IMG/VR virus record: IMGVR_UViG_3300025133_000321 | Location: 1-36,784 of that record | Reading direction: 5' to 3' (one strand) | DNA: 36,784 bases | Source: a virus | Shown: piece by piece, positions 15,293-35,340 of the stretch | Layout of the letters: every line of letters starts with the position of its first letter | Position numbering within the stretch: the stretch's first letter is position 1 | Program-made: the position numbers and the translations under genes | The notes under the pieces: generated by a model | Databases searched by the model: none | Seen by the model: the letters and a program-made list of their open reading frames with translations, nothing else | Told to the model about the DNA's origin: nothing

Positions 15293-16057
15293 TCATAAGC
15301 CGAAGAAATTAGAAATACTATCCCAGAATCCCAACTCTTCAGAAGTATTAGGATCAATCGGGCTGCTATCTCTAGTTAAGGACACTATCATTCTATGTTC
15401 ATTGTCAGATATGGTATGATTTATTTCACTAATTAACCACATACCACTACTTCTTCTTTCTCTATCTTCTGCTTGAGGAATTATGTTGGATATTTTGATT
15501 ACTGTCCCCGGTCTTAAAGTTAGGTCTCCATTTATAACAATAATTGCTTTTTGAGATCCTAAAAGCATCATTTGTGCATTTCGCCACAACGGAGTAATCG
15601 GAGGAGTATCCCAATAGGTTGCATACGTTCTATTGTATTCTATATAATCTTTAAATTTTGAACCGACACAGGGACAATTACAACTACTGGGATGATCTGG
15701 ATTACTCCAAACACATCCTTGCCATTCTGAACCCAATACATCTTCTATCAGATCGCATTCTTTGACTGCATCTAATTTTTCTTGTATCTCTTCATCGGTT
15801 GGTTCTTGATCCGGTGCTGTACCAAACACACCAAAGAGATCCCACCAAGATGCATCTCCGGTAGGTTTTAATTCTTGACAGGGACAATTACACAAAGGAT
15901 CATCATCTGGGCAATCTGAATTATCTACAGGAGTGTCTGGATTTGCACATGGATATTTATCATAAGCACCATATGATGAATGGCCTAATTTAACAGAGGG
16001 CCAAGTTTCCTTTGCAAATTTTTTCAATCCTATTATAAAATCTGGTTCAGACGGCAT
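15293..16057 (-). CDS. Baseplate hub-related protein with cysteine-rich insert
   Basis: The protein has 254 residues and GGGAG as ribosome site. Residues about 30-145 are cysteine-, Pro- and Asp-rich (DPLCNCPCQEL, SSCNCPCVGSKF). Residues about 165-240 look like the closing beta barrel of a hub/VgrG-type protein: IVINGDLTLRPGTVIKI, SGMWLISEINHTI, HRMIVSLTRDSSPI. That 'G-D-x-x-L-x-PG...SG-x-W...H' arrangement is seen at the ends of phage hub proteins. It may be the C-terminal piece of the hub that is carried as a separate gene, after the 697- and 721-residue genes. That reading is inference. Confidence 0.68.
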   Translation of the reverse strand: MPSEPDFIIGLKKFAKETWPSVKLGHSSYGAYDKYPCANPDTPVDNSDCPDDDPLCNCPCQELKPTGDASWWDLFGVFGTAPDQEPTDEEIQEKLDAVKECDLIEDVLGSEWQGCVWSNPDHPSSCNCPCVGSKFKDYIEYNRTYATYWDTPPITPLWRNAQMMLLGSQKAIIVINGDLTLRPGTVIKISNIIPQAEDRERRSSGMWLISEINHTISDNEHRMIVSLTRDSSPIDPNTSEELGFWDSISNFFGL

Positions 16058-16094
16058 AGTATTCTCCCGTATTATTTATCATTCTGGTCATTGT

Positions 16095-18260
16095 TCAACC
16101 CCCCGGTGGTCCAAAATCCCACTCATAACAGATACAATCTGGGTCTGGAAATTCACAACACAACATACAACACCAACCTTCAGGACACGGAGGATCGCAA
16201 TTCTCGGTACATGATTCTGGTGGTTCAGCACAAGGATTCCATGTTGTGGTGGGTGGTTCGTCACATTCTTCACAATACGAATCTATACAACAAAGTGCCT
16301 CATCACAATCAATATCTTCTACACATTCTGGTTGCGGTGTTGTTGTGGTAGTGGTAGTGGTGGTAGTGGTGGTAGTAGTGGTGGTGGTTGCACAGTCCCC
16401 ACATTCTCCATCCTGACAACACGAATCTTCGCCTTCACAATCATCGTCTTCTCCACATTCTGGTGGTTCTGGGCAATCAACACATTCCCCGTTTTGACAA
16501 CATTGATCTCCACAATTTGAATCGTTTTCACATTCTGGTTGTTCATCACAAACACTACAATCCCTACCAGAAAACCAAAGTGCAGAATATGATCCACTTT
16601 CGCTTACGTCATCAGATGCAGAACAGCATTCAAAGTTGTATAGATCTCCTCCTTTGCAAGTGTAAGTTATCTTTCCTGTGCCTGGATTTCTTTCGCAACA
16701 CGCACCGCTCGGAAGAGGCTCGCATGAAACATCATTGCATGTTTTACAGCATCCTGATATTTCACCGGATGGATGAGTTCCATATGAACCCTTCCACCTT
16801 CCCTTGTCTTCAAAACACTGCCAAACATTTACCTCCGAACACGAACCATCCGGTAAACAACAAGCAGATGTTGGAATGCAAGAATTGTTTGTGTAATCGT
16901 CATCCATTGTGTCCCAAAATGAAGTACCGCAACCAGAAGTTGTAGGAATATAACCTTCTTCAGATAAGAAATCTTCGCACATAAATTTCCAAAAATCGTT
17001 ATTGCAGGCCCTTAGTTTTAATTCTTCTCCAGATAAATCTGTTAGTTGGGCTTCCTCTTCCCACCACCAAATGGGAGTTTGTGATGCACTAATTCCCCAA
17101 ACATCTGAATCAAAAACAACAACTACAGCACCAGCACCATTTTTCTTGTAGACCACCGTACATGTTTTTTCTTCTGAGTTGCAATGTCCAACTAAAGGTT
17201 TACCACCATGTTCATTTATGGGAATTAACCCGGAACTATATGAACAATGAAAAGGTAAAGGTTTATTATCTCCATCGTCTTCCATCTTGAACGGAGTTTT
17301 TGTTTTCTGACAACAACTCTGAGAAATGAAAAAATCATTTTCACTTTCAAATTGATTAATAAAAGGTTCGTCTGAAATTTCTACCCATTCTGTGGGTTCC
17401 TCTTCATCATCGTTTCTTGCAGCGTAATAGGCAAACTCTAAAAGAAGTTGAGTGATTTGACCACCAGATAAAGATATGGAAGATTCATAAAATGAATTTT
17501 CTGGACAATCAGGACCGGAGCAATCTCTTAATTGATACCAACCACTTGGTCTGAAAAACCCAACACGATTTATACATGATCCAAATACACTATCCTTCGC
17601 TTCGCCCATTATTACCAATTTTCCACCAGATTTAACCCAATTGCGGATCCATTCCCAATTTTGGTTATTCTCACCACCCTCTGGTGGAACTGTAACTTTA
17701 TCTGCTCCACACACAGGCATTTCATCACCGAAATTTGAAACACCATAATCTCTACCAACCGCACCAACAAATGCAAGAGAATGACATCCTATATTTTCTT
17801 CTGTGCAATGCATAGAACAGTCACCTTTAGGAACTAAAGGACTTTCCCAATTATCAATCCAATCTTTAAATACTTGGGGCGACCAAGGAAGAAAACCTTG
17901 AGGAGAAGAATATTGGTAATACCAAGGTTTTGGTATTTTGTTTCCCATTGGCCAATGTGGCCAACAATAATCTTGATCACATTCGCCAGGATATGAATAT
18001 TCAGTAGGGTTAGTTTCCCAGCAAATATTACCAGTGAATAAATTTTCTGGATGTTTTCCTGTTATCCAATCACCACCGGGATCAGAACCTTGTTCTTTTT
18101 GTGGGGAGTTTGGAGCAGGAATATCAGATCCTATTGGTGAGTATGAAGTTTCCCCCAACGCACAAATTGGACACGAACCAGAAGTGGAGGGATAACGAAA
18201 TTCATCCCCCGAACAAGGTCTATCACCACACCCACAACAACATATTCTATGTGTATTCAT
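16095..18260 (-). CDS. Cysteine-rich virion protein with amidotransferase-like segment and poly-Thr linker
   Basis: The protein has 721 residues. Residues about 150-300 contain HSLAFVGAVGRDYG, then NWEWIRNWVKSGGKLVIMGE, resembling the 'W-x-x-I-R-x-x-V-x-SGG-x-L-V' step of class-I glutamine-amidotransferase-like Rossmann domains; the catalytic set is not evident. From about residue 460 the protein is a string of disulfide-style units (SACCLPDGSC, GACCERNPGTGK, CGDQCCQNGECVDC, GEDSCCQDGECGDC), interrupted by 17 consecutive Thr at residues 625-641. The start is six bases after the upstream stop with no clear ribosome site, so it is probably translationally coupled to the gp27-like gene. The function is unknown; it is probably displayed on the baseplate hub or tail tip. 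Confidence 0.72.
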   Translation of the reverse strand: MNTHRICCCGCGDRPCSGDEFRYPSTSGSCPICALGETSYSPIGSDIPAPNSPQKEQGSDPGGDWITGKHPENLFTGNICWETNPTEYSYPGECDQDYCWPHWPMGNKIPKPWYYQYSSPQGFLPWSPQVFKDWIDNWESPLVPKGDCSMHCTEENIGCHSLAFVGAVGRDYGVSNFGDEMPVCGADKVTVPPEGGENNQNWEWIRNWVKSGGKLVIMGEAKDSVFGSCINRVGFFRPSGWYQLRDCSGPDCPENSFYESSISLSGGQITQLLLEFAYYAARNDDEEEPTEWVEISDEPFINQFESENDFFISQSCCQKTKTPFKMEDDGDNKPLPFHCSYSSGLIPINEHGGKPLVGHCNSEEKTCTVVYKKNGAGAVVVVFDSDVWGISASQTPIWWWEEEAQLTDLSGEELKLRACNNDFWKFMCEDFLSEEGYIPTTSGCGTSFWDTMDDDYTNNSCIPTSACCLPDGSCSEVNVWQCFEDKGRWKGSYGTHPSGEISGCCKTCNDVSCEPLPSGACCERNPGTGKITYTCKGGDLYNFECCSASDDVSESGSYSALWFSGRDCSVCDEQPECENDSNCGDQCCQNGECVDCPEPPECGEDDDCEGEDSCCQDGECGDCATTTTTTTTTTTTTTTTTPQPECVEDIDCDEALCCIDSYCEECDEPPTTTWNPCAEPPESCTENCDPPCPEGWCCMLCCEFPDPDCICYEWDFGPPGG
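16338..16388 (-). repeat. Trinucleotide (ACN) tract encoding 17 threonines
   Basis: Seventeen successive ACC/ACT/ACA codons lie between two cysteine units of the 721-residue protein. The mix of third bases shows it is kept as a protein linker and not only as a simple DNA repeat. It could still change length by slippage. Confidence 0.9.
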
Positions 18261-18266
18261 TTTATA

Positions 18267-20360
18267 TTATGGACAAGAACACAAACCATCATGTGCGTTT
18301 GGAACATCAAAGAAATATATTTCAGTAGGAATTGAATCATCATCTTCAGGATCTATTGCAGTTATTTTGTCCAACCCTTTACCTTCTAGTTTATACATTT
18401 GGACAATGTGACCATGAAAATAAACATCTGCTCCGTCTTCCATTTCACAAGGTTCTGGTTCGGTTTGGAAAAATCCTCCAACAGGCATCATTTGAAATGC
18501 TTCTGCATAATCATTGAAATCTTCATCTGCAACATTCACACCTGGTCCAACATAGACATTATCACCATCTTCTATGTTTAGTAATTCGTTGATATTGAAT
18601 GCTGGATTTGTCCATTCACTTCCAGTTCTATATGTTCCCTTTAATCCCTTTGTTGGAACTATTACTGTTATGGGGGCATCTGGATTAGAAATTATTTCAC
18701 CATCAATTTCTTCAATTGCATCCTTAGGCCACATTTCAATTTCTTTCCATGAATATTCAAATATACCACCACGGGAATCTTCTTGGATGTGTTTTGCGTC
18801 ATCAATAACCGCAAGAAAAACGTGCTTATCATCTGTTGCACAACATATTGATTCTTTATAAACGGTCCATCTTTCTTTAAAGTTAATTATGTCTGCGTAT
18901 TCTTTATACCTTTCCCTCAGAGGTTTTTTAATATCCCGTTGTATTTTTTTTAATGTTTCTATTTCCAAATCTGTTTGATCAAACATAGTTTGCCACATTA
19001 CATCGTTTATCTTTCCAAACTTTCCTTTATGTTCAATGCTTCTCATATAGTTTAATTCGTTTTCGTTTTGAATATTATATGGGGAACTAAAATATCCATA
19101 CAAACCACTTTCGTCATATTTTCTTCTTATTCTATTTGGAATATTTTCAGGATCGGATATGTCTATTTTTGTTTCTATGTTGTCTGGGATTAGTTTATAA
19201 TTTTCGATTCTCCCCATTTCCCCCCATGCTTCAATATCTCTATGATAGTCATAATCTACAATTTCCAATTCGCCGGCGGTGTCTGAATCTTTCTTTTGAT
19301 GATTTTGGGAAAAGTCAACATAATCAAAATATGGATCATCATAATTTGGTTTGATAAGTTCATAATAAGAGGAATATGCACCTTCTCTCCACAACCTCAA
19401 ATGATCATATTCACTCATAATCCTAAATCGTTCAATTCTAGGATCACCCTTACCATTCCACAGGTCAAAAGAAATTTCATCATCGGCTATATAATAAGTT
19501 CTCTTGTCTGAGCCCCATATCGCTCTCGATACCATATTACCATCATCCCAAAAATCCTGAATCATCTTTCTAACAGATTTAAAATGCCAACCATCTAGAT
19601 CTTGATAGAAGAGATAATTTATTCCTTTTTGATCTTCAGTTACAGAATTTTCTGCAAGATTGTTCATCAACTCTAATAAAGTTGGTTGGTGTGTATCTTT
19701 ACCCCAAGGATACATATTTTGCCTATTTTTCAACCAAATAGAATTGTGGGTAGTTTCTATTTCCATTTCTTTTTTTGAAAAACTAAATGGTGTTGACCCC
19801 GGATTAAAATATTTATTTGCAATATTATTTACAAGTCCCAGACGACTGGAGAACATGGAATCATTTGCTATCTTTCCAATAAAATCAGATTCGTCCCCAT
19901 CAATATAAGAATCAGAAGAACCCATTCCCCAATTCAAAAAATATGATTCACAAGCAATAAAATCTAACTCCCATCCCAGATTTGCTTTACTTGAAGGTCC
20001 ACTGAGTTCTGGTAGAGTATCATCCCCGATCATTCTTACATCTGAAACACAGAAGGTTAACTCATATGATGAGTCTTTTATGTCAGGAGATCGCATTTTG
20101 ATTATAATAAATTCATTACCAAGAAAATTAAAATAATCACCACCAGCACCGGGTTCCTTTATACGAAGAGTTCCATTAATACCTGGCTGATATATTCCTT
20201 CTTTTAAACTTATATTAACAAAAACAGAATCTGAAGGGTTTTCATCCTCATCTTGTGGAATTGGTAATACTTGAATAGCAGTTCCACTATCTCTTTTTTC
20301 AATCCGCAACGAATCTATTATGATGTCAAAATTAGAATTTCTTTCAACTGTTTCTGTCAT
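18267..20360 (-). CDS. Baseplate hub protein (gp27-like)
   Basis: The protein has 697 residues. The N-terminus reads FDIIIDSLRIEKRDSGTAI, then VFVNISLKEGIYQPGINGTL, then FLGNEFIIIKMRSPD and LTFCVSDVRMI. This is the arrangement of T4-like gp27 hub proteins, whose first domain begins with 'LYEPG-x-x-G-x-L-x-I'. A long middle part follows (DQKGINYLFYQDLDGWHFKS). At 697 residues it is much longer than T4 gp27 (391), so it may include additional hub or spike domains. Position between gp53 and gp25 fits a hub. AGGGA precedes the ATG by nine bases. Confidence is high for hub and moderate for the gp27 equivalence. Confidence 0.78.
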   Translation of the reverse strand: MTETVERNSNFDIIIDSLRIEKRDSGTAIQVLPIPQDEDENPSDSVFVNISLKEGIYQPGINGTLRIKEPGAGGDYFNFLGNEFIIIKMRSPDIKDSSYELTFCVSDVRMIGDDTLPELSGPSSKANLGWELDFIACESYFLNWGMGSSDSYIDGDESDFIGKIANDSMFSSRLGLVNNIANKYFNPGSTPFSFSKKEMEIETTHNSIWLKNRQNMYPWGKDTHQPTLLELMNNLAENSVTEDQKGINYLFYQDLDGWHFKSVRKMIQDFWDDGNMVSRAIWGSDKRTYYIADDEISFDLWNGKGDPRIERFRIMSEYDHLRLWREGAYSSYYELIKPNYDDPYFDYVDFSQNHQKKDSDTAGELEIVDYDYHRDIEAWGEMGRIENYKLIPDNIETKIDISDPENIPNRIRRKYDESGLYGYFSSPYNIQNENELNYMRSIEHKGKFGKINDVMWQTMFDQTDLEIETLKKIQRDIKKPLRERYKEYADIINFKERWTVYKESICCATDDKHVFLAVIDDAKHIQEDSRGGIFEYSWKEIEMWPKDAIEEIDGEIISNPDAPITVIVPTKGLKGTYRTGSEWTNPAFNINELLNIEDGDNVYVGPGVNVADEDFNDYAEAFQMMPVGGFFQTEPEPCEMEDGADVYFHGHIVQMYKLEGKGLDKITAIDPEDDDSIPTEIYFFDVPNAHDGLCSCP

Positions 20361-22767: not shown

Positions 22768-23385
22768 ATGCCCCAACATCCAAGTGGTATAGAAGTATTT
22801 AAACAGTCATTGATAAGGTCTGGTCTATCTAGACCTTCTCGCTATGTCGTTACGATTGAAATCGATGACTCCAGAATGTCACACGACGGCCAAAACGCTA
22901 ATGGGCATGAATATAGATTTCAACCAGAAAGTTTAACATTACCACAAAGATCATTCGTAACTGTTGTAGATGATCTTTTTGGCCCAAAGAGAAATGTTCC
23001 TGTTGGAAATGACTATAGCGGTACAGTGGTTATGGTGTTTCCGGTATCAGATGATCAGTTGCAAAGATCTTGGTTTGAATCATGGATGGATAATATAGTA
23101 CATCCAGTTGGTCAGCACGCAAACTACACCGCCAACAAAACCCATGGCCCGAAGGTACATGGTAGTATGACTATATCAACACTAAACATGGATGGATATG
23201 TATCCTCATCATATTTTCTTGAAGAAGTATATCCGAAAGAAATAATTCCAGTAAATATGGGCTATTCAATGATCAACGACTACACAAAACTTCAAGTTGT
23301 GTTTGAATATAGAAGATACGAATATAAAGCACAAGATAAACATGGAATCGCTAGATATGAATCAAAGGATGGAACGCTTGTCTAA
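22768..23385 (+). CDS. Tail tube protein (gp19/gp54 tube family)
   Basis: The protein has 205 residues, AAGGA ten bases upstream. The pattern RPSRYVVTIEI, then YRFQPESLTLPQRSF, then FGPKRNVPVGNDYSGTVVMV, SWMDNIV and finally FEYRRYEYK fits the T4 gp19 tube fold (gp19 itself 163 residues), in which a beta barrel is followed by 'P-x-x-x-x-V' insertion loops. The tube-like domain is shared by gp48 and gp54, so it could instead be a gp54-type initiator. Immediately followed by gp26 and a tape-measure-like gene, the usual order tube, chaperone, tape measure favours the tube itself. Confidence 0.75.
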   Translation: MPQHPSGIEVFKQSLIRSGLSRPSRYVVTIEIDDSRMSHDGQNANGHEYRFQPESLTLPQRSFVTVVDDLFGPKRNVPVGNDYSGTVVMVFPVSDDQLQRSWFESWMDNIVHPVGQHANYTANKTHGPKVHGSMTISTLNMDGYVSSSYFLEEVYPKEIIPVNMGYSMINDYTKLQVVFEYRRYEYKAQDKHGIARYESKDGTLV

Positions 23386-23402
23386 AATAAAAAGGATACA
23401 TT

Positions 23403-24122
23403 ATGAGTTCATTATCAAATATATTACTGTCTAAAACACCAAAATACTTAATAGAAATTCCATCTAACAAGAAAAAGACTTCATATAGACCTTTTCTTGT
23501 AAAGGAAGAAAAAATATTACTACTTGCTCAAAAATCTGAAGATCATTCAGAAATATTGTTAGCAATAAAGGACATCATAGAATCTTGTGTGGATGATATT
23601 GGAGATGTTTCTGATATTCCAATATTTGATATTGAATATATTTTCATAAATCTTCGTGCAAAATCAGTTGGTGAAATTGTAGAGCCTGTTATTGTTTGTC
23701 CAAAAACTAACGAAAAAGTGACGCTTGAAATAAATCTAATGGACATAAACATAAAAGAAAACAAAAATCATAAAAATAAAATTAAAATAGATGAAAATGT
23801 TATATTAGAAATGGGTTATCCATCAATCAACATTTTACAGAAAACAGAATCTGATATTGATTACACAGATCCTGACTCTTTTTATAACTTAATCTCAATG
23901 TGTATTCAAAAAGTACACACAACCGAAGAAACAATAGAAACTTCTTTGTTGCCCCAGCAAGAAGTAAAAGATTTCATAGACAACATGAACAGGGATCAAT
24001 TTGAAAAGGTTTTAGATTTTTTCTTAACATCTCCAAGATTAGAACACGAAATAGAATATACCACTTCTGATGGGGTAAAGAGAAAGGTGGTGTTGAGTGG
24101 GTTGTCAGATTTTTTCGGATAG
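23403..24122 (+). CDS. 26: Baseplate hub assembly protein gp26-like; 0-frame product of a probable -1 frameshift gene
   Basis: The protein has 239 residues (T4 gp26 has 208). The N-terminal region has PKYLIEIPSNKKKTSYRPFL, then VKEEKILLLAQKSED, then DIEYIFINLRAKSVGEIVEP, the gp26 family signature. In T4, gp26 is required to assemble the central hub but is not in the finished particle, which would fit a chaperone. The gene ends DFFG and stop, encoded by GAT TTT TTC GGA TAG. This contains a -1 slippery heptamer followed by a hairpin, so a fraction of ribosomes may continue into the frame described next. Confidence 0.9.
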   Translation: MSSLSNILLSKTPKYLIEIPSNKKKTSYRPFLVKEEKILLLAQKSEDHSEILLAIKDIIESCVDDIGDVSDIPIFDIEYIFINLRAKSVGEIVEPVIVCPKTNEKVTLEINLMDINIKENKNHKNKIKIDENVILEMGYPSINILQKTESDIDYTDPDSFYNLISMCIQKVHTTEETIETSLLPQQEVKDFIDNMNRDQFEKVLDFFLTSPRLEHEIEYTTSDGVKRKVVLSGLSDFFG

Positions 24123-24141
24123 GGCTCACCCACCTGAGCCT
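24110..24141 (+). promoter_or_regulatory. Probable programmed -1 ribosomal frameshift site in gp26
   Basis: Heptamer T TTT TTC at 24110-24116, positioned in the gp26 frame as X XXY YYZ, allows tRNA-Phe in both P and A sites to re-pair one base back. Five bases (GGATA) separate it from a hairpin: GGCTCA at 24123-24128, loop CCCACC, TGAGCC at 24135-24140, plus a G-U pair outside. The stem is perfect and its distance is within the usual range for stimulatory structures. The zero-frame stop (24120-24122) lies inside the spacer. The loop bases CCCAC could also pair with GTGGG at 24097-24101. Confidence 0.75.
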
Positions 24142-24325
24142 AGAGAATTATTATAGATTGAACTTTCAACTAGTCCAACACCACAAATATAGTTTGTGTG
24201 AATTAGAAAATATGATTCCTTGGGAAAGAGATATCTATTTGGCTCAACTGATCGAATATATAGAGACAGAGAACGAAAAAATAAGGCTACAAGAAATAGA
24301 ACAAAGAAAATCTAATAGAAGTTGA
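24116..24325 (+). CDS. -1 frame extension of gp26 (gp26-fs tail, 69 residues)
   Basis: After a -1 slip the ribosome would read CGG ATA GGG and on to TGA at 24323-24325, adding 69 residues to 238 of gp26, a 307-residue fusion. The frame is open back to 24071 but has no ATG, GTG or TTG before its conserved part, so independent initiation is unlikely. The extension reads ...HLSLENYYRLNFQLVQ, then HHKYSLCELENMIPWERDIY, then a charged helix ending in KSNRS. The part 'QHHKYSL-x-EL-E-x-MIPWERDIY' is compact, protein-like and, from memory, recurs as a small ORF beside gp26 in other T4-like aquatic phages. A role like gpGT or gpE' (binding the tape measure) is inferred. Confidence 0.72.
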   Translation, partial: RIGLTHLSLENYYRLNFQLVQHHKYSLCELENMIPWERDIYLAQLIEYIETENEKIRLQEIEQRKSNRS

Positions 24326-24334
24326 TGGAGCATA

Positions 24335-25513
24335 ATGAAACAAAAAATATCTTTAAAAAATAATATGCTATCGTTTTTTGATTCCAGAAAAAACGATAGC
24401 GAATACAGCAACCAAGAAATAGAACCAACTAAACGAGAAAGATCATTTCTTGATTATTATTCTTCAAATGTTTTTATCCAAGAACCAACAAATAAAAATA
24501 TCCCTGTTGTTGAAAAACCCACCGATAATAAAAACAATGATTTCATTTTCAGGAAAAAACATAAAACGAAAGAAAACCGCGAAGAGAAAAAACAAGATTC
24601 AAAAAGCAAAAATGCATTAGATAATAATATTCTACATTTAGAAAATATAGAAAATAAACTTAAATCTTTGACAGAGAATAATTTCAAAACCATAAACAAC
24701 ATTCACAACAAAACAGATCATATTCATAATAAAAATAATAACACACACAAATCATATGAAGAAAAGATTGATAACACAATCAATAACATATTTAAAAAAA
24801 ATATAGATTCACCAACGCTTATAACAAACAACAACGAATCCGTTATGAATTCTATAAATTCTATGAAAAACAACACAACAAAATACGTCAATGATTATGT
24901 TGATAACAATGTAGATCAGGCACCACCAAAAGATGAGAAACACACAGAATCTATTAAGATGATAGCAAAGGTTATTCGGGTAAAGGGAGATAATGTTCCC
25001 AAGATAATATCTCCAAAATACAACGTTCAAAACAACCGAATGAAAGAATACCACACAAATGATATTGGCACCACCCTCATTTCCAACATTGAAAAAATAG
25101 TACCGAAAAATGAAATAATAGAAATACCCACATTTGCTGAAGGTGGAGTGGTAACTAAACCAACCATTGCTCAGATAGGTGACGCCCCAGGCGGCGATCA
25201 AACAGAAGTTGTAATGAGTCCTAGAAAAATACCAGAGGTATTAGCGAAAGCAAATGTTATTGAAAAAACAAATAAATTAACTATCTCAGAACAAGCAAAA
25301 AAATCAATGGGCGAAAACTCCGAATTAAAAATAAACCAACAGCAGGCTAACCCATCTACTAACCAAGCATCCCAACCAGCATTAATAAATGCCCCCAAAA
25401 TAATAAACAGTTCTGGAAACAATAGTGGTGGAGTTCAGACTCAACCATCAAAAAGTGGTGCTTACTTAAATTCTTCGTCTAGATTGCCTAGATGGAGAAC
25501 ACAAATAGGATGA
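24335..25513 (+). CDS. Tape-measure-like tail protein (short)
   Basis: The protein has 392 residues with GGAG seven bases before the ATG. It is very rich in Lys and Asn in its first 230 residues and reads like extended coil. Residues about 265-300 have IPTFAEGGVVTKPTIAQIG, then GGDQTEVVMSP. That 'FAEGG-x-V-T-x-PT-x-A-x-IG' stretch is typical of the Gly-rich C-terminal part of tail tape measure proteins. It ends in a Gln/Asn/Ser-rich tail. Position after tube and gp26 supports a tape measure or gp29-like role, though it is shorter than T4 gp29 (590). If roughly 0.15 nm per residue applied, the tail would be on the order of 60 nm; this is only an estimate. Confidence 0.65.
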   Translation: MKQKISLKNNMLSFFDSRKNDSEYSNQEIEPTKRERSFLDYYSSNVFIQEPTNKNIPVVEKPTDNKNNDFIFRKKHKTKENREEKKQDSKSKNALDNNILHLENIENKLKSLTENNFKTINNIHNKTDHIHNKNNNTHKSYEEKIDNTINNIFKKNIDSPTLITNNNESVMNSINSMKNNTTKYVNDYVDNNVDQAPPKDEKHTESIKMIAKVIRVKGDNVPKIISPKYNVQNNRMKEYHTNDIGTTLISNIEKIVPKNEIIEIPTFAEGGVVTKPTIAQIGDAPGGDQTEVVMSPRKIPEVLAKANVIEKTNKLTISEQAKKSMGENSELKINQQQANPSTNQASQPALINAPKIINSSGNNSGGVQTQPSKSGAYLNSSSRLPRWRTQIG

Positions 25514-26852: not shown

Positions 26853-28232
26853 ATGACCGATACCAACGATAACCTAACACTCGATATTAGCGGAAATACC
26901 GCCTCTGTAGCCACAGATTATGGCCATTCATCTCATGGACTAACAGCAGCACATGTTCCATTACAAAAACTTGTATGGGGAGATGATTCTGCTAGTTACA
27001 GAACATCATTAACTAATCCCCTACCCATCCAATGGGCAGGAGCAACAGGTCCAGTAGACATGACTGGTAATGTAAGTGGTCAAACTGGATCCAGATTCCC
27101 AGTAACCAATGTGTTGACTCAGAGCGGAGATAGAAATGAATTTCTTGCTGTCGCAGGAGATACTGCCGGTCTGCCCTTGGGCATTTCTGGTGCGATTCAA
27201 GGACTTGTAGATGGCCATCCTCTTGGTATATGTGGTTCTGTTAGTATTAAGGGTATGTATCCAGAGTACGGTGCGGGTGTTGATTGGACAGGTGTTCAAA
27301 TCCAAGGTGTCACCTGTATAGGTGGATCAGGAACCATAACCGTAGCAGGAGAGTCCTATGGAGTCACAGCAGGGTTTGGTATCCCCATTGCTATCACCGC
27401 AGGAAGACGCTTAGACTCTAGTGTGGATAGTGTAGCGATCACCGGAACTGTCGGTGTAAGTGGCGGAAAAGACTTAACATCAGCCACGGATTCTGTCTCT
27501 TGTTTCGGACACGATCAAGGTAGGCACGTATTTTCAAAGGTATTCGCATCTGATGGCACAACTCTTGGTGCATCTGGTGAATATCTTAAAGTTTGGATGG
27601 GTGGTGCAGACATCAATGCAACTGTCAACGTTTCCAGCATACATGGTGTTACCAACTCAACAGAAACTCCACTAAGAGTTCAAGGTTTCGAAGACGGAAC
27701 TGGTCACTCTCCAGTAGTAATTAAAGGTGAAAATGCAGGCGGAGCAATTGATATTGTTTCCACCAATTCCCTATCAACAAGTGTAGATAATGTCGTAGAA
27801 ATACAAGATGATGATATCATCAACCACATGAAAGATTCTGACAAACCTCTGATAAACACTCTTAATAGTATAAAAACTGGAACGGATCAAATTTCCCCAT
27901 TAAGAACAGATCTTAAAAGTGGAAATATACAATCAACAATTTTAGAAATAAAAAGACCGGCCAGTTTAAGGTCTGGATCAAAGACGGCGACAGCGACAGC
28001 ACAACCTTTAAGTAACAACTTAGAATTAAAAACCGGAGTTACCCTTAAGAGTTCGCCGTCAAACACCGGAAATATATTAATAGGAGGTAGAGGATTGGTG
28101 AATTCCTCCGCAAGTGGATATTTACTTGAACCCGGAGAATCAATATATTTAGAAGTAAATAATCTAAAAACAATATATGTCAAATCAGACAACGCTGGAG
28201 ACAGTCCAAAAATATATTACATCGGTAGTTGA
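26853..28232 (+). CDS. Virion structural protein, unassigned
   Basis: The protein has 459 residues, GGAG eleven bases upstream. The sequence is Gly/Ser/Thr-rich and beta-like, with repeated short units such as VSIKG, ITGTVGVSGG and NATVNVSS. The C-terminus ends GYLLEPGESIYLEVN, then KTIYVKSDNAGDSPKIYYIG, a closing seen in many decoration or fibre-associated phage proteins. It is first in a plus-strand run of three large genes. A structural role is probable; location unknown. Confidence 0.75.
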   Translation: MTDTNDNLTLDISGNTASVATDYGHSSHGLTAAHVPLQKLVWGDDSASYRTSLTNPLPIQWAGATGPVDMTGNVSGQTGSRFPVTNVLTQSGDRNEFLAVAGDTAGLPLGISGAIQGLVDGHPLGICGSVSIKGMYPEYGAGVDWTGVQIQGVTCIGGSGTITVAGESYGVTAGFGIPIAITAGRRLDSSVDSVAITGTVGVSGGKDLTSATDSVSCFGHDQGRHVFSKVFASDGTTLGASGEYLKVWMGGADINATVNVSSIHGVTNSTETPLRVQGFEDGTGHSPVVIKGENAGGAIDIVSTNSLSTSVDNVVEIQDDDIINHMKDSDKPLINTLNSIKTGTDQISPLRTDLKSGNIQSTILEIKRPASLRSGSKTATATAQPLSNNLELKTGVTLKSSPSNTGNILIGGRGLVNSSASGYLLEPGESIYLEVNNLKTIYVKSDNAGDSPKIYYIGS

Positions 28233-28248
28233 TAATAAAGAAGTTATT

Positions 28249-30738
28249 ATGTCGTTTAGAAACAACAAAAAAATAAAACGAGTAGTTCGGCAACATCTTC
28301 CTTTTAGCGAGGGGAGATTTGTTGCATTAAGATTTATTGATACCCTAGACGAATTATATGATAAAACAGAATCTATAGTTGAAAATCCAAACATAACATT
28401 TAATGGAAATAGTGTTATTGTTGATTATGGTTATGTTTTAAATTCATCAAAATCTTCATTAGAGAAGGTGCTGTTCTTCTTCAGGGATGGGTTAAATAAG
28501 AATGATATAATAACACTAAGCGATGGTGAATATTTAAACGAAATGTCAGGTGATTCTGAAATAAGAGATTATTCAGGAACATATTATTTCAAATCTTTTG
28601 ATGCTAATCTTCTAATTGCATCTTTAGAAAAAATATCAATAAACAACGAAAGTTCCTATTATAATAAATTAAATAAAAACCACTTCATAAGTAATTCAAT
28701 AAAATGGACAACAACTTCTTCTGAAAAAAAGATAGTAAAAACCAATGAGATTGTAAATGAACTCGGAAGTAACTCTCTTAATTCTTTCGTGAATACATTA
28801 GGGGCAATTGAAGCAAATGATATATTAGAAATAATCATCCCCGATGAAGAAATAAAAAGGTTTACAGTAGAAGAATATAACTCAGAAAATGATATAGAAA
28901 GAATTATAGTAAAAGAGGATGTTTCTGAAGAAGAAGATTTGTTCGGAACACCAACTTTTGTAAGACTATTCAGAATTCCATCAAAAACAGATTCTTCATC
29001 TGATACCACGACAACAAATAGATCAATTTCACCACCACCAACACCAAAAGCAACCAGAACCCAACCACCACCAACACCAAAAGCAACCAGAACCCAACCA
29101 CCATCATCACAAAAAACAACAACTCCACCAACATCAACACCAAAAGCAACCAGAACCCAACCAACAGTAAGACCATCATCTACTAGTAAGGAAAGGGTTA
29201 AGTCCTCAAAAAACAAAAAATCATATGAAACCAAATGGAATAATTCTGGTAAAGAACTATTCAATGTTGAAGTTACCACTCAAGGTGGCAGAAACGTTTA
29301 TGCTATAAATGGTACTCCCCAAAAACAATTGACTTTGATTAGGGGGGAAACATACCGGTTTAATACTAAACATCCATCAATGGGAAATAAAGGTTTTACT
29401 AATACTAATCATCCATTGGTATTTTCAACCAGAAAAGATGCTAGAATACCAGATGGAACAATAGTTGATTCCCTAAAAACTTGGAAATCACCAACAAAGG
29501 AAGGAAGCAGAGGTTCATATCAATATCTAGAAATACCACACAATATAAAAACAAACATATATTATGCTTGTGGAAATCATAAAGATATGGGTGGAATTAT
29601 TCGGTTATCCTCTTCTGCAACATTAACACCACATACGAATACCCCAAAAACACGAGGCACTGGTGTACCTTGGGATGATCCAGATATACCAGCACCCGCC
29701 ACTAGAGCAATGTGTAGTTGTTGTGATGGAACAGAATGTGGAGATGGTAATTTTCCCGGTTCCGAATCAAGCAGAACCGGTGGTTGTTGGTCGTGTATAT
29801 GGAAAGCAATACGAAAAGTAGAATCATCATGGGTGAAGGACCGTTGCGAAAATCCATGTAACTGTGTTGGGGATAATGGTAATGCTTGTGGTCCATTCCA
29901 AATATGGAAATCATATTTGATTGATGCAATCGAAAAGTGCCCGGGCATATTAACTGAATTTGGATTAACGGGTGCTGCTGCCGCTCATTCATTTTTATGT
30001 GAACCTTGCCCTTCTGGTGATACAGCGTGTTGTACAAAAAAATGGAATCTATCTAAAAGAATAATAGAATGTTATATGCAAAGATACGTCAAACCCGGCC
30101 GTGGTAAATGTAAGGGAACCGGTAGGGACGGTTGTTTTACATGTGAAGATATAGCAAGAATGCATAATGGTGGACATTGTGGTCATAGAAGAAATACCAC
30201 AGACGATTATTGGACAGAAGTAAAAAACAAAATGAAAGAAATGTGTGAAGAAAACTGCCAATGCTGCGATTGTTGTGGTTCTAAAAGTGATACAGGAATG
30301 GGAGCCGCTGCACCTTCTGAATGCAAAAAAGGTAGTTGCGGAGAGAAGGATTGTAATGTATGTTGTAGATATGGAACAAACGATGATGGCCATTACACAC
30401 TAATACATTGTTATGATGATATATCATGTGAAGAATGTTATTGTTTTCAAGACATGAATGACGACCTAAACGACCATGAATTCGTATGTAAAGCATCAAC
30501 ATTGGACCCGCCAGAACCGTGTGGTTGGAAAGGATGTGACAAGAGGAAATACATTGGAGGATGTGACGCACATCGTGTCGAAGCAACTCTAACAGGACCA
30601 TGTGAATCACTACCACCACATATACCTGGCGGTGGTTGGATACCAGAATGTCAATATTACGAATGGTGTCAAGCAAATTGTAATGGACAGTGCGGTAGAC
30701 CACCTATTCCGGGTTCGGGACCAGGAAGTATAGGATAA
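28249..30738 (+). CDS. Large cysteine-rich virion protein: cupredoxin-like domain plus lysozyme-like domain
   Basis: The protein has 829 residues from the ATG at 28249, which is preceded by AAAGAAG; a frame start at 28177 lies inside the previous gene. Residues about 1-245 are a novel alpha/beta region. Residues about 257-315 are a Pro/Thr/Lys-rich linker with repeats PTPKATRTQPP. Residues about 326-454 resemble a cupredoxin: LTLIRGETYRFN, NHPLVFS (His388), then YYACGNHKDMGG, giving Cys441-x2-His444-x2-Met447. Residues about 500-670 resemble a lysozyme: KVESSW (Glu525), GDNGNACGPFQIW, IARMHNGGHCGH and DDYW. A Cys-rich C-terminus closes the protein. It is probably a tail-associated peptidoglycan hydrolase; the copper role is inferred. 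Confidence 0.82.
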   Translation: MSFRNNKKIKRVVRQHLPFSEGRFVALRFIDTLDELYDKTESIVENPNITFNGNSVIVDYGYVLNSSKSSLEKVLFFFRDGLNKNDIITLSDGEYLNEMSGDSEIRDYSGTYYFKSFDANLLIASLEKISINNESSYYNKLNKNHFISNSIKWTTTSSEKKIVKTNEIVNELGSNSLNSFVNTLGAIEANDILEIIIPDEEIKRFTVEEYNSENDIERIIVKEDVSEEEDLFGTPTFVRLFRIPSKTDSSSDTTTTNRSISPPPTPKATRTQPPPTPKATRTQPPSSQKTTTPPTSTPKATRTQPTVRPSSTSKERVKSSKNKKSYETKWNNSGKELFNVEVTTQGGRNVYAINGTPQKQLTLIRGETYRFNTKHPSMGNKGFTNTNHPLVFSTRKDARIPDGTIVDSLKTWKSPTKEGSRGSYQYLEIPHNIKTNIYYACGNHKDMGGIIRLSSSATLTPHTNTPKTRGTGVPWDDPDIPAPATRAMCSCCDGTECGDGNFPGSESSRTGGCWSCIWKAIRKVESSWVKDRCENPCNCVGDNGNACGPFQIWKSYLIDAIEKCPGILTEFGLTGAAAAHSFLCEPCPSGDTACCTKKWNLSKRIIECYMQRYVKPGRGKCKGTGRDGCFTCEDIARMHNGGHCGHRRNTTDDYWTEVKNKMKEMCEENCQCCDCCGSKSDTGMGAAAPSECKKGSCGEKDCNVCCRYGTNDDGHYTLIHCYDDISCEECYCFQDMNDDLNDHEFVCKASTLDPPEPCGWKGCDKRKYIGGCDAHRVEATLTGPCESLPPHIPGGGWIPECQYYEWCQANCNGQCGRPPIPGSGPGSIG
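29041..29163 (+). repeat. Three 27-base direct repeats in the Pro/Thr linker
   Basis: Identical units starting ACACCAAAAGC and ending CCCAACCA occur at 29041-29067, 29074-29100 and 29137-29163. They encode TPKATRTQP. The spacing is 33 and 63 bases, all in frame, so copies can be lost or gained without breaking the protein. Confidence 0.92.
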
Positions 30739-34575: not shown

Positions 34576-35340
34576 CTATGATATGAATTCATCCAATGTT
34601 GCAACAGACAACTTATCTATTATACGTTCATTGGTTATACTATAGTATTTATCTTCCATTTCAATACCAATATAGTTTCTTTTTGAATTTATTGCAGCAA
34701 TAGCAGTTGTTCCACTACCAATACAATTGTCTAGTACAACATCACCTTCTTCAGTATATGTACGAATCATATATTCAAAAAGAGCAACTGGTTTTTGTGT
34801 TGGGTGCAATCCAGTTTCTTGTTTGAAACGACGAATCGTTTTTGGATATCGTGTTCCGTGGTTCTCCCGATGCATACTTGTTTGATTTGCATAGACTTCA
34901 CCAATAGTTGCACCATCTTTGGAAGAGAATCCACTATAGGGTTTTCCCTCTTCCATTTGTGGGAAATATCTGGCACGTTTCTTAGAAAATACCAGTACGT
35001 TTTCGTGTGATTTCATAGGCATTACTTTTGCATTCAGTGGGTTTGTTCCTTGAGGCTTTTCCCATACCCACTCATACCTAAACATTTTTATATTACTACT
35101 AACAAGAACGCTTGTAAAGGGCTGTGCTGCTGTCAGAACGATTGCAGAGTCTTCTTTTACGATTCTGGTATACTGAGTCCATAAATCTTCAAAAGGAATT
35201 ATAACGTCCCATTTACACGCAGTAGTCCCATACGGAAGATCGCATAGAATCATATCAACGGAGTTATCTGGAATGTCTTTCATAACTTCCAGACAGTCTC
35301 CGTGTATAATTTGGTTTTTGAAGTCTTCTATGTTTTTCAT
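34576..35340 (-). CDS. DNA adenine/cytosine-N4 methyltransferase (beta-type arrangement)
   Basis: The protein has 254 residues. Motif IV is VDMILCDLPYGTT (Asp34-Leu-Pro-Tyr37), a DLPY form of (D/N/S)PP(Y/F). KWDVIIPFEDLW and YEWVWEKPQGTNPLNAKV follow, then motif I as DNCIGSGTTAIAA (residues 204-216) with GIEMEDKYY near the end. The order motif IV before motif I is that of beta-class amino-methyltransferases. No restriction gene is seen nearby, so it is probably a lone methylase that guards phage DNA or alters sites. Strong promoter upstream, weak ribosome site. Adenine-N6 is likelier than cytosine-N4. Confidence 0.92.
   Translation of the reverse strand: MKNIEDFKNQIIHGDCLEVMKDIPDNSVDMILCDLPYGTTACKWDVIIPFEDLWTQYTRIVKEDSAIVLTAAQPFTSVLVSSNIKMFRYEWVWEKPQGTNPLNAKVMPMKSHENVLVFSKKRARYFPQMEEGKPYSGFSSKDGATIGEVYANQTSMHRENHGTRYPKTIRRFKQETGLHPTQKPVALFEYMIRTYTEEGDVVLDNCIGSGTTAIAAINSKRNYIGIEMEDKYYSITNERIIDKLSVATLDEFIS

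Follow-up and report, generated by a model that had tools for sequence, protein, structure and literature searches.

gp26 and its frameshifted form, gp26-fs, of an uncultured marine T4-like phage very probably constitute a tail-assembly chaperone (TAC) pair, to which a probability of about 0.92 can be assigned. The following observations underlie this assignment: a slip site in gp26, a conserved open -1 frame behind it, the homology of that frame to gp51, a TAC-like fold of the N-terminal part of gp26, and the paralogy of gp26 and gp51 in bacteriophage T4. The assignment is correct, yet it has already been published for T4-like phages. The unusual part of the locus is the 392-residue protein that is found in the slot of the tape measure.

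Organization of the gp26 locus

The window, by which the whole stretch of analysed DNA is meant, is a 36,784-base record (IMG/VR IMGVR_UViG_3300025133_000321). Its T4-like neighbouring genes encode a gp4-like head-closure protein, a gp48-like cap and gp32, and baseplate wedge proteins of the gp53, gp25 and gp6 types are encoded in it as well. The features of the locus are the following:

22768..23385, plus strand: tube-fold protein of 205 residues, most likely a gp54-type tail-tube initiator (PHROG 45)
23403..24122, plus strand: gp26, 239 residues, the putative short chaperone form, TAC-N (PF12322, PHROG 150, AlphaFold model, match to 2OB9)
24110..24116, plus strand: -1 slippery heptamer T TTT TTC (read directly in the sequence; codon constraint)
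24110..24325, plus strand: -1 frame extension, the putative TAC-C, 69 residues past the shift (PHROG 634, the gp51 family)
24122..24141, plus strand: hairpin GGGCTCA / TGAGCCT, a possible stimulator, 5 nt past the slip site
24335..25513, plus strand: hydrophilic protein of 392 residues, candidate tape measure (conserved position, motif, homologue in L034)

An earlier note on this DNA had given the order of the genes as a tube-fold gene, gp26 and the 392-residue ORF, and all three are found at their places and in that order. The tube-fold gene and gp26 are separated by 17 nt, and the end of the -1 frame and the start of the 392-residue ORF by 9 nt. Because a near-identical contig, L006, spans the same region (98% over 6 kb), the arrangement around gp26 is not an assembly error.

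Several other genes of the window deserve mention. Matches to PHROG 350 (tail protein) are divided over two ORFs on the minus strand, 18267-20360 and 15293-16057, and between them (within 15293-20360, minus strand) is situated a 721-residue ORF that is rich in Cys and contains a long run of Thr. An 853-residue ORF at 28177-30738 contains a 33-base tandem repeat at 29031-29163 and a Cys-rich stretch which, as judged by eye, is similar to a lysozyme-like domain; a Pfam search with this ORF gave no match. A DNA methyltransferase gene (34576-35340; PHROG 67, E = 5.4e-79) is located close to the end of the fragment.

The slip site and the -1 frame

The 3' end of gp26 reads ...GAT TTT TTC GGA TAG, in which GGA TAG is the continuation of frame 0 after the slip site. 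The -1 frame stays open until a TGA at 24323-24325, and the gp26-fs fusion is 307 residues long. The tail encoded in the -1 frame, LENYYRLNFQLVQHHKYSLCELENMIPWERDIYLAQL, matches PHROG 634, 'baseplate hub assembly catalyst', which is the family of T4 gp51, with an E value of 1.6e-23. It also matches 545 phage records, chiefly those of Synechococcus phages, with others belonging to Vibrio, Prochlorococcus and Sinorhizobium phages. The -1 site that had been proposed for gp26 is present as described: the heptamer T TTT TTC stands just 5' of the stop codon and is followed by a conserved -1 frame.

The site was compared in 107 frameshift-type loci, which comprise IMG/VR loci together with those of S-SM2, KVP40 and the marine virus AG-345-E15. 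A slip heptamer is found at the same place, just 5' of the gp26 stop, in all 107. It is T TTT TTC in 104 loci, and ends in TTA in two and in TTT in one. After dereplication, 80 of 80 loci have T as the last base of the codon 5' of the first Phe and TTT as the codon of this Phe, despite the fact that the residue ahead of it differs (Ser, Asp, Ala, Gly, Asn). The chance of such a codon pattern is about 10^-28 under pooled codon usage, a figure that treats the loci as independent, which they are not. The slip site is far from chance, and the choice of codons is strongly constrained. In 18 loci, including the window, the -1 frame contains no ATG, GTG or TTG ahead of a conserved block, which is LENYY in the window. 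Because these codons are missing, the -1 tail would hardly be made in these loci except via the shift.

The hairpin that begins 5 nt past the slip site has a folding energy of -10.7 kcal/mol, and the 74-nt region has a z score of -2.69. L035 retains the hairpin of the window with one compensatory change. A conserved RNA stimulator was sought across the family and was not found; several loci have hairpins, the positions of which differ. For this reason a stimulator is proposed as a local feature of the window, L006 and L035.

Family and fold of gp26

gp26 belongs to family PF12322 (E = 7.4e-58; 196 bits, with a curated cut-off of 24.5) and matches PHROG 150 with an E value of 5.1e-60. The AlphaFold model of gp26 has a pLDDT of 93. 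When the model is compared with known chaperones, as the earlier note had suggested, its N-terminal domain appears to be TAC-like. The top solved structure is 2OB9, the HK97 tail assembly chaperone, with a Z score of 7.9, 88 of 107 residues aligned and 12% identity. It is followed by 3FGX (Z of 7.7) and by B. subtilis YqbN (3KLU, Z of 7.0), a phage-type chaperone. The scores then drop to 4.4 for 5IR0 and to 2.8 and below for the remaining structures. The match is confined to residues 1-94 of gp26 (1-89 with 2OB9), and the list of structure matches contains no solved counterpart of the rest of the protein. A Z score just under 8 can be due to chance or to a common arrangement, and the fold match is thus support that falls short of proof. 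It was obtained with a second structural aligner, Foldseek alone being weak: the Foldseek search of the model against the PDB gave nothing with an E value below 0.5, and 2OB9 came third with 1.8. When solved structures were searched with a sequence profile, no relatives of gp26 were found.

T4 gp51 matches PF12322 with an E value of 3.9e-52, and its C-terminus matches PHROG 634 with an E value of 1.2e-23; therefore, the short and long forms are two genes in T4. T4 gp26 and gp51 share 20% identity (E = 3e-6), and their profiles align (hhalign E = 3.6e-7). As judged from these alignments, the two T4 proteins are paralogues.

Alternative interpretations of gp26

It is conceivable that the gp51-like ORF in the -1 frame is a gene of its own, with its own ribosome-binding site, and that the run of T is incidental. 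Many database records do list the small ORF as a separate gene named 'baseplate hub assembly catalyst', the junction in KVP40 is TAATG, and an ATG is present within the -1 frame in many cyanophage-type loci. Such an arrangement is at odds with the slip heptamer, kept in every one of the loci compared, and with the codon choice that is fixed although the residues vary. It is also at odds with the window and 17 further loci, in which the possible start codons are missing before the conserved block, and with T4 gp51, in which a gp26-like part and a -1-type tail are fused in frame. Two separate genes are therefore very improbable.

It is just as improbable that gp26 is a structural part of the baseplate hub rather than a chaperone, and that the frameshift supplies it with a tail for binding the baseplate. 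The name of gp26 and the PHROG label 'baseplate hub' suggest such a role, and older genetic work made gp26 a component of the hub proper in T4 (PMC3004832). The same review of the T4 tail, however, places gp26 and gp51 among the hub assembly chaperones and describes gp51 as missing from the finished particle (PMC3004832). Both the fold of the gp26 N-terminal domain, which resembles that of TACs, and the gene layout, which is that of TAC genes, argue against a structural role.

The chaperone function that the earlier note had suggested for gp26 is borne out by the slip site with its -1 peptide, by the position of the gene, by the fold and by the T4 paralogues. In T4-like loci, gp26 is situated directly upstream of the tape-measure slot, and its position in the window agrees with that in the relatives, the downstream 392-residue protein being a candidate tape measure by position and motif.

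The gene upstream of gp26

The gene 5' of gp26 had been described as a gp19-like tube gene. The tube fold is confirmed by the match of its product to PHROG 45, tail tube (E = 1.9e-17), but the identity with gp19 is not, and the protein is probably a gp54-type initiator. Each of the complete or near-complete T4-like genomes searched has three PHROG 45 genes, namely gp19, gp3 and a third, which is gp54 in T4 and the gene adjoining gp26 in S-SM2 and KVP40. In the latter two phages, gp19 is flanked by genes 18 and 20, gp3 is separate, and the gene adjoining gp26 is distinct from gp19. The gene at 22768-23385 adjoins gp26 and does not lie between gp18 and gp20, and the major tube protein gp19 is unlikely to be its product. 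Because of the positions of gp19 and of the third gene in S-SM2 and KVP40, it most likely encodes the tube initiator. This assignment was made by elimination because the tube-gene profile failed to single out gp54 and gave higher scores to gp3 and gp19.

According to a rough count, about 21 changes that are non-synonymous and 3 that are synonymous separate the tube-like gene from its counterpart in L006. Unlike it, gp26 and the gene of the 392-residue protein are almost identical in L006. This contrast could be due to recombination or to fast change.

The protein in the tape-measure slot

The proposal that the 392-residue protein is the tape measure stands as far as position and motif are concerned, and fails to find a family match or a confident fold. 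The position of the gene is conserved across the relatives, and the protein contains the motif FAEGGVVTKPTIAQIGDA at 25133-25186. A homologue of 485 residues (E = 9.5e-20), which was found via the L034 genome, has the tape-measure-style motif GGV..PTIAQIGDA in common with it; a scan for more homologues found the L006 protein alone. The 392-residue protein has no match in Pfam (at an E value of 0.1) or PHROG. Membership in PF25671, the family of the T4-type tape measure gp29, was rejected, there being no Pfam match at that threshold; PF25671 also fails to reach the proteins in the same slot of S-SM2 and KVP40. The AlphaFold model, computed from an alignment of five sequences only, is uninformative (pLDDT of 40).

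The protein has a GRAVY value of -1.0 and lacks a hydrophobic segment. The slot ORFs of the window, L006 and L033-L036 are set apart by GRAVY values between -0.65 and -1.26, a top 19-residue hydropathy of 0.22-0.91 and an Asn, Ser and Thr content of 30-49%. A hydrophobic segment is present in the slot ORFs of most relatives; low values outside this group are few and belong mainly to ORFs that are truncated or short. The length of the slot protein varies within the clade (L034, 3435-4892; L035, 4928-5731; L036, 4917-6812), and the L035 and L036 contigs end inside tandem repeats within the slot gene.

Position and one motif make the 392-residue protein a candidate tape measure. Alternatively, the rest of the genome, beyond the window, might encode a helical tape measure of greater length, as the 392-residue protein is short and hydrophilic, without a hydrophobic segment, and has neither a confidently predicted fold nor any family match. 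Against this, the relatives examined fill the same slot with tape-measure-like proteins, the GGV..PTIAQIGDA motif recurs in L034, and simple measures of composition single out no other ORF in the 36.8 kb covered by the window as a tape measure. A tape measure encoded elsewhere is thus rather unlikely. It would bear on the identity of the tape measure alone and would not conflict with a chaperone role of gp26. Somewhat doubtful, but worth putting forward, is the speculation that the tape measure of this clade has been replaced or rebuilt into a hydrophilic protein that is rich in Asn, Ser and Thr, grows by repeats, lacks any hydrophobic segment and is probably disordered, while the usual gp26/gp26-fs pair was kept.

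A proposed model for the probable chaperone pair and its significance

By combining these findings, it is possible to outline how the pair might function. gp26 would be the TAC-N, analogous to lambda gpG. A programmed -1 shift at T TTT TTC, presumed to take place in vivo, would add the 69-residue TAC-C and so produce the long form, TAC-NC, an analogue of lambda gpGT and the counterpart of T4 gp51. The frequency of shifting would set a presumably unequal ratio of the two forms. Both forms might bind the tape-measure protein, maintain its solubility and deliver it to the hub. The tube would then be able to grow along the tape measure, and the chaperones would leave, so that they should be absent from the virion.

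The earlier note had anticipated a unification of the T4-type hub assembly genes with the chaperones of other long-tailed phages. For genes 26 and 51 of T4 this is supported by the fold and by the T4 paralogy, and the window provides confirmation of it from an uncultured phage. The frameshift form is widespread among T4-like marine phages, T4 itself having a gene for each form. In many cyanophage records the -1 tail is entered as a gene in its own right, either hypothetical or named 'baseplate hub assembly catalyst'. Such an entry is probably a misannotated frameshift product, and these records could be corrected. The odd slot protein of the clade would test the need for a hydrophobic helical tape measure.

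Comparison with known systems

T4 gp26 and gp51 are homologous to gp26 of the window and to gp26 plus the -1 tail, respectively. In T4 they are two genes, and because these are divergently oriented, a frameshift cannot join them; the window has one gene with a -1 frame. Genes 26 and 51 were reportedly treated by Vladimirov, Gautam and Davidson in 2022 (Virology 566:9-15), and frameshifting is said to be conserved in several T4-like groups. The T4-like chaperones of that work are reportedly of the same gp26/gp51 family, with short and long forms and with frameshifting in some groups. The window differs from those systems in belonging to an uncultured marine phage and in having a tape-measure-slot protein unlike those of the cyanophages and KVP40. 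The PRFect paper (PMC10885494) states, citing Vladimirov et al. 2022, that some T4-like phages do not frameshift but have one gene for the short form and another, longer one that is a fusion.

The HK97 chaperone appears to have the same fold as the N-terminal domain of gp26; gp26 has about 140 extra residues. In phage lambda, ribosomes that slip into the -1 frame close to the 3' end of the short gene, G, produce the long form gpGT, and the pair is situated upstream of the tape-measure gene. This frameshift was described by Xu et al. 2004, as cited in PMC9024508. The window has in common with lambda the place of the predicted -1 shift, close to the 3' end of the short gene, and the position of the pair upstream of the tape-measure slot. 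It differs in its slip site, T TTT TTC, and in its upstream gene, which probably encodes a tube initiator and not the main tube protein.
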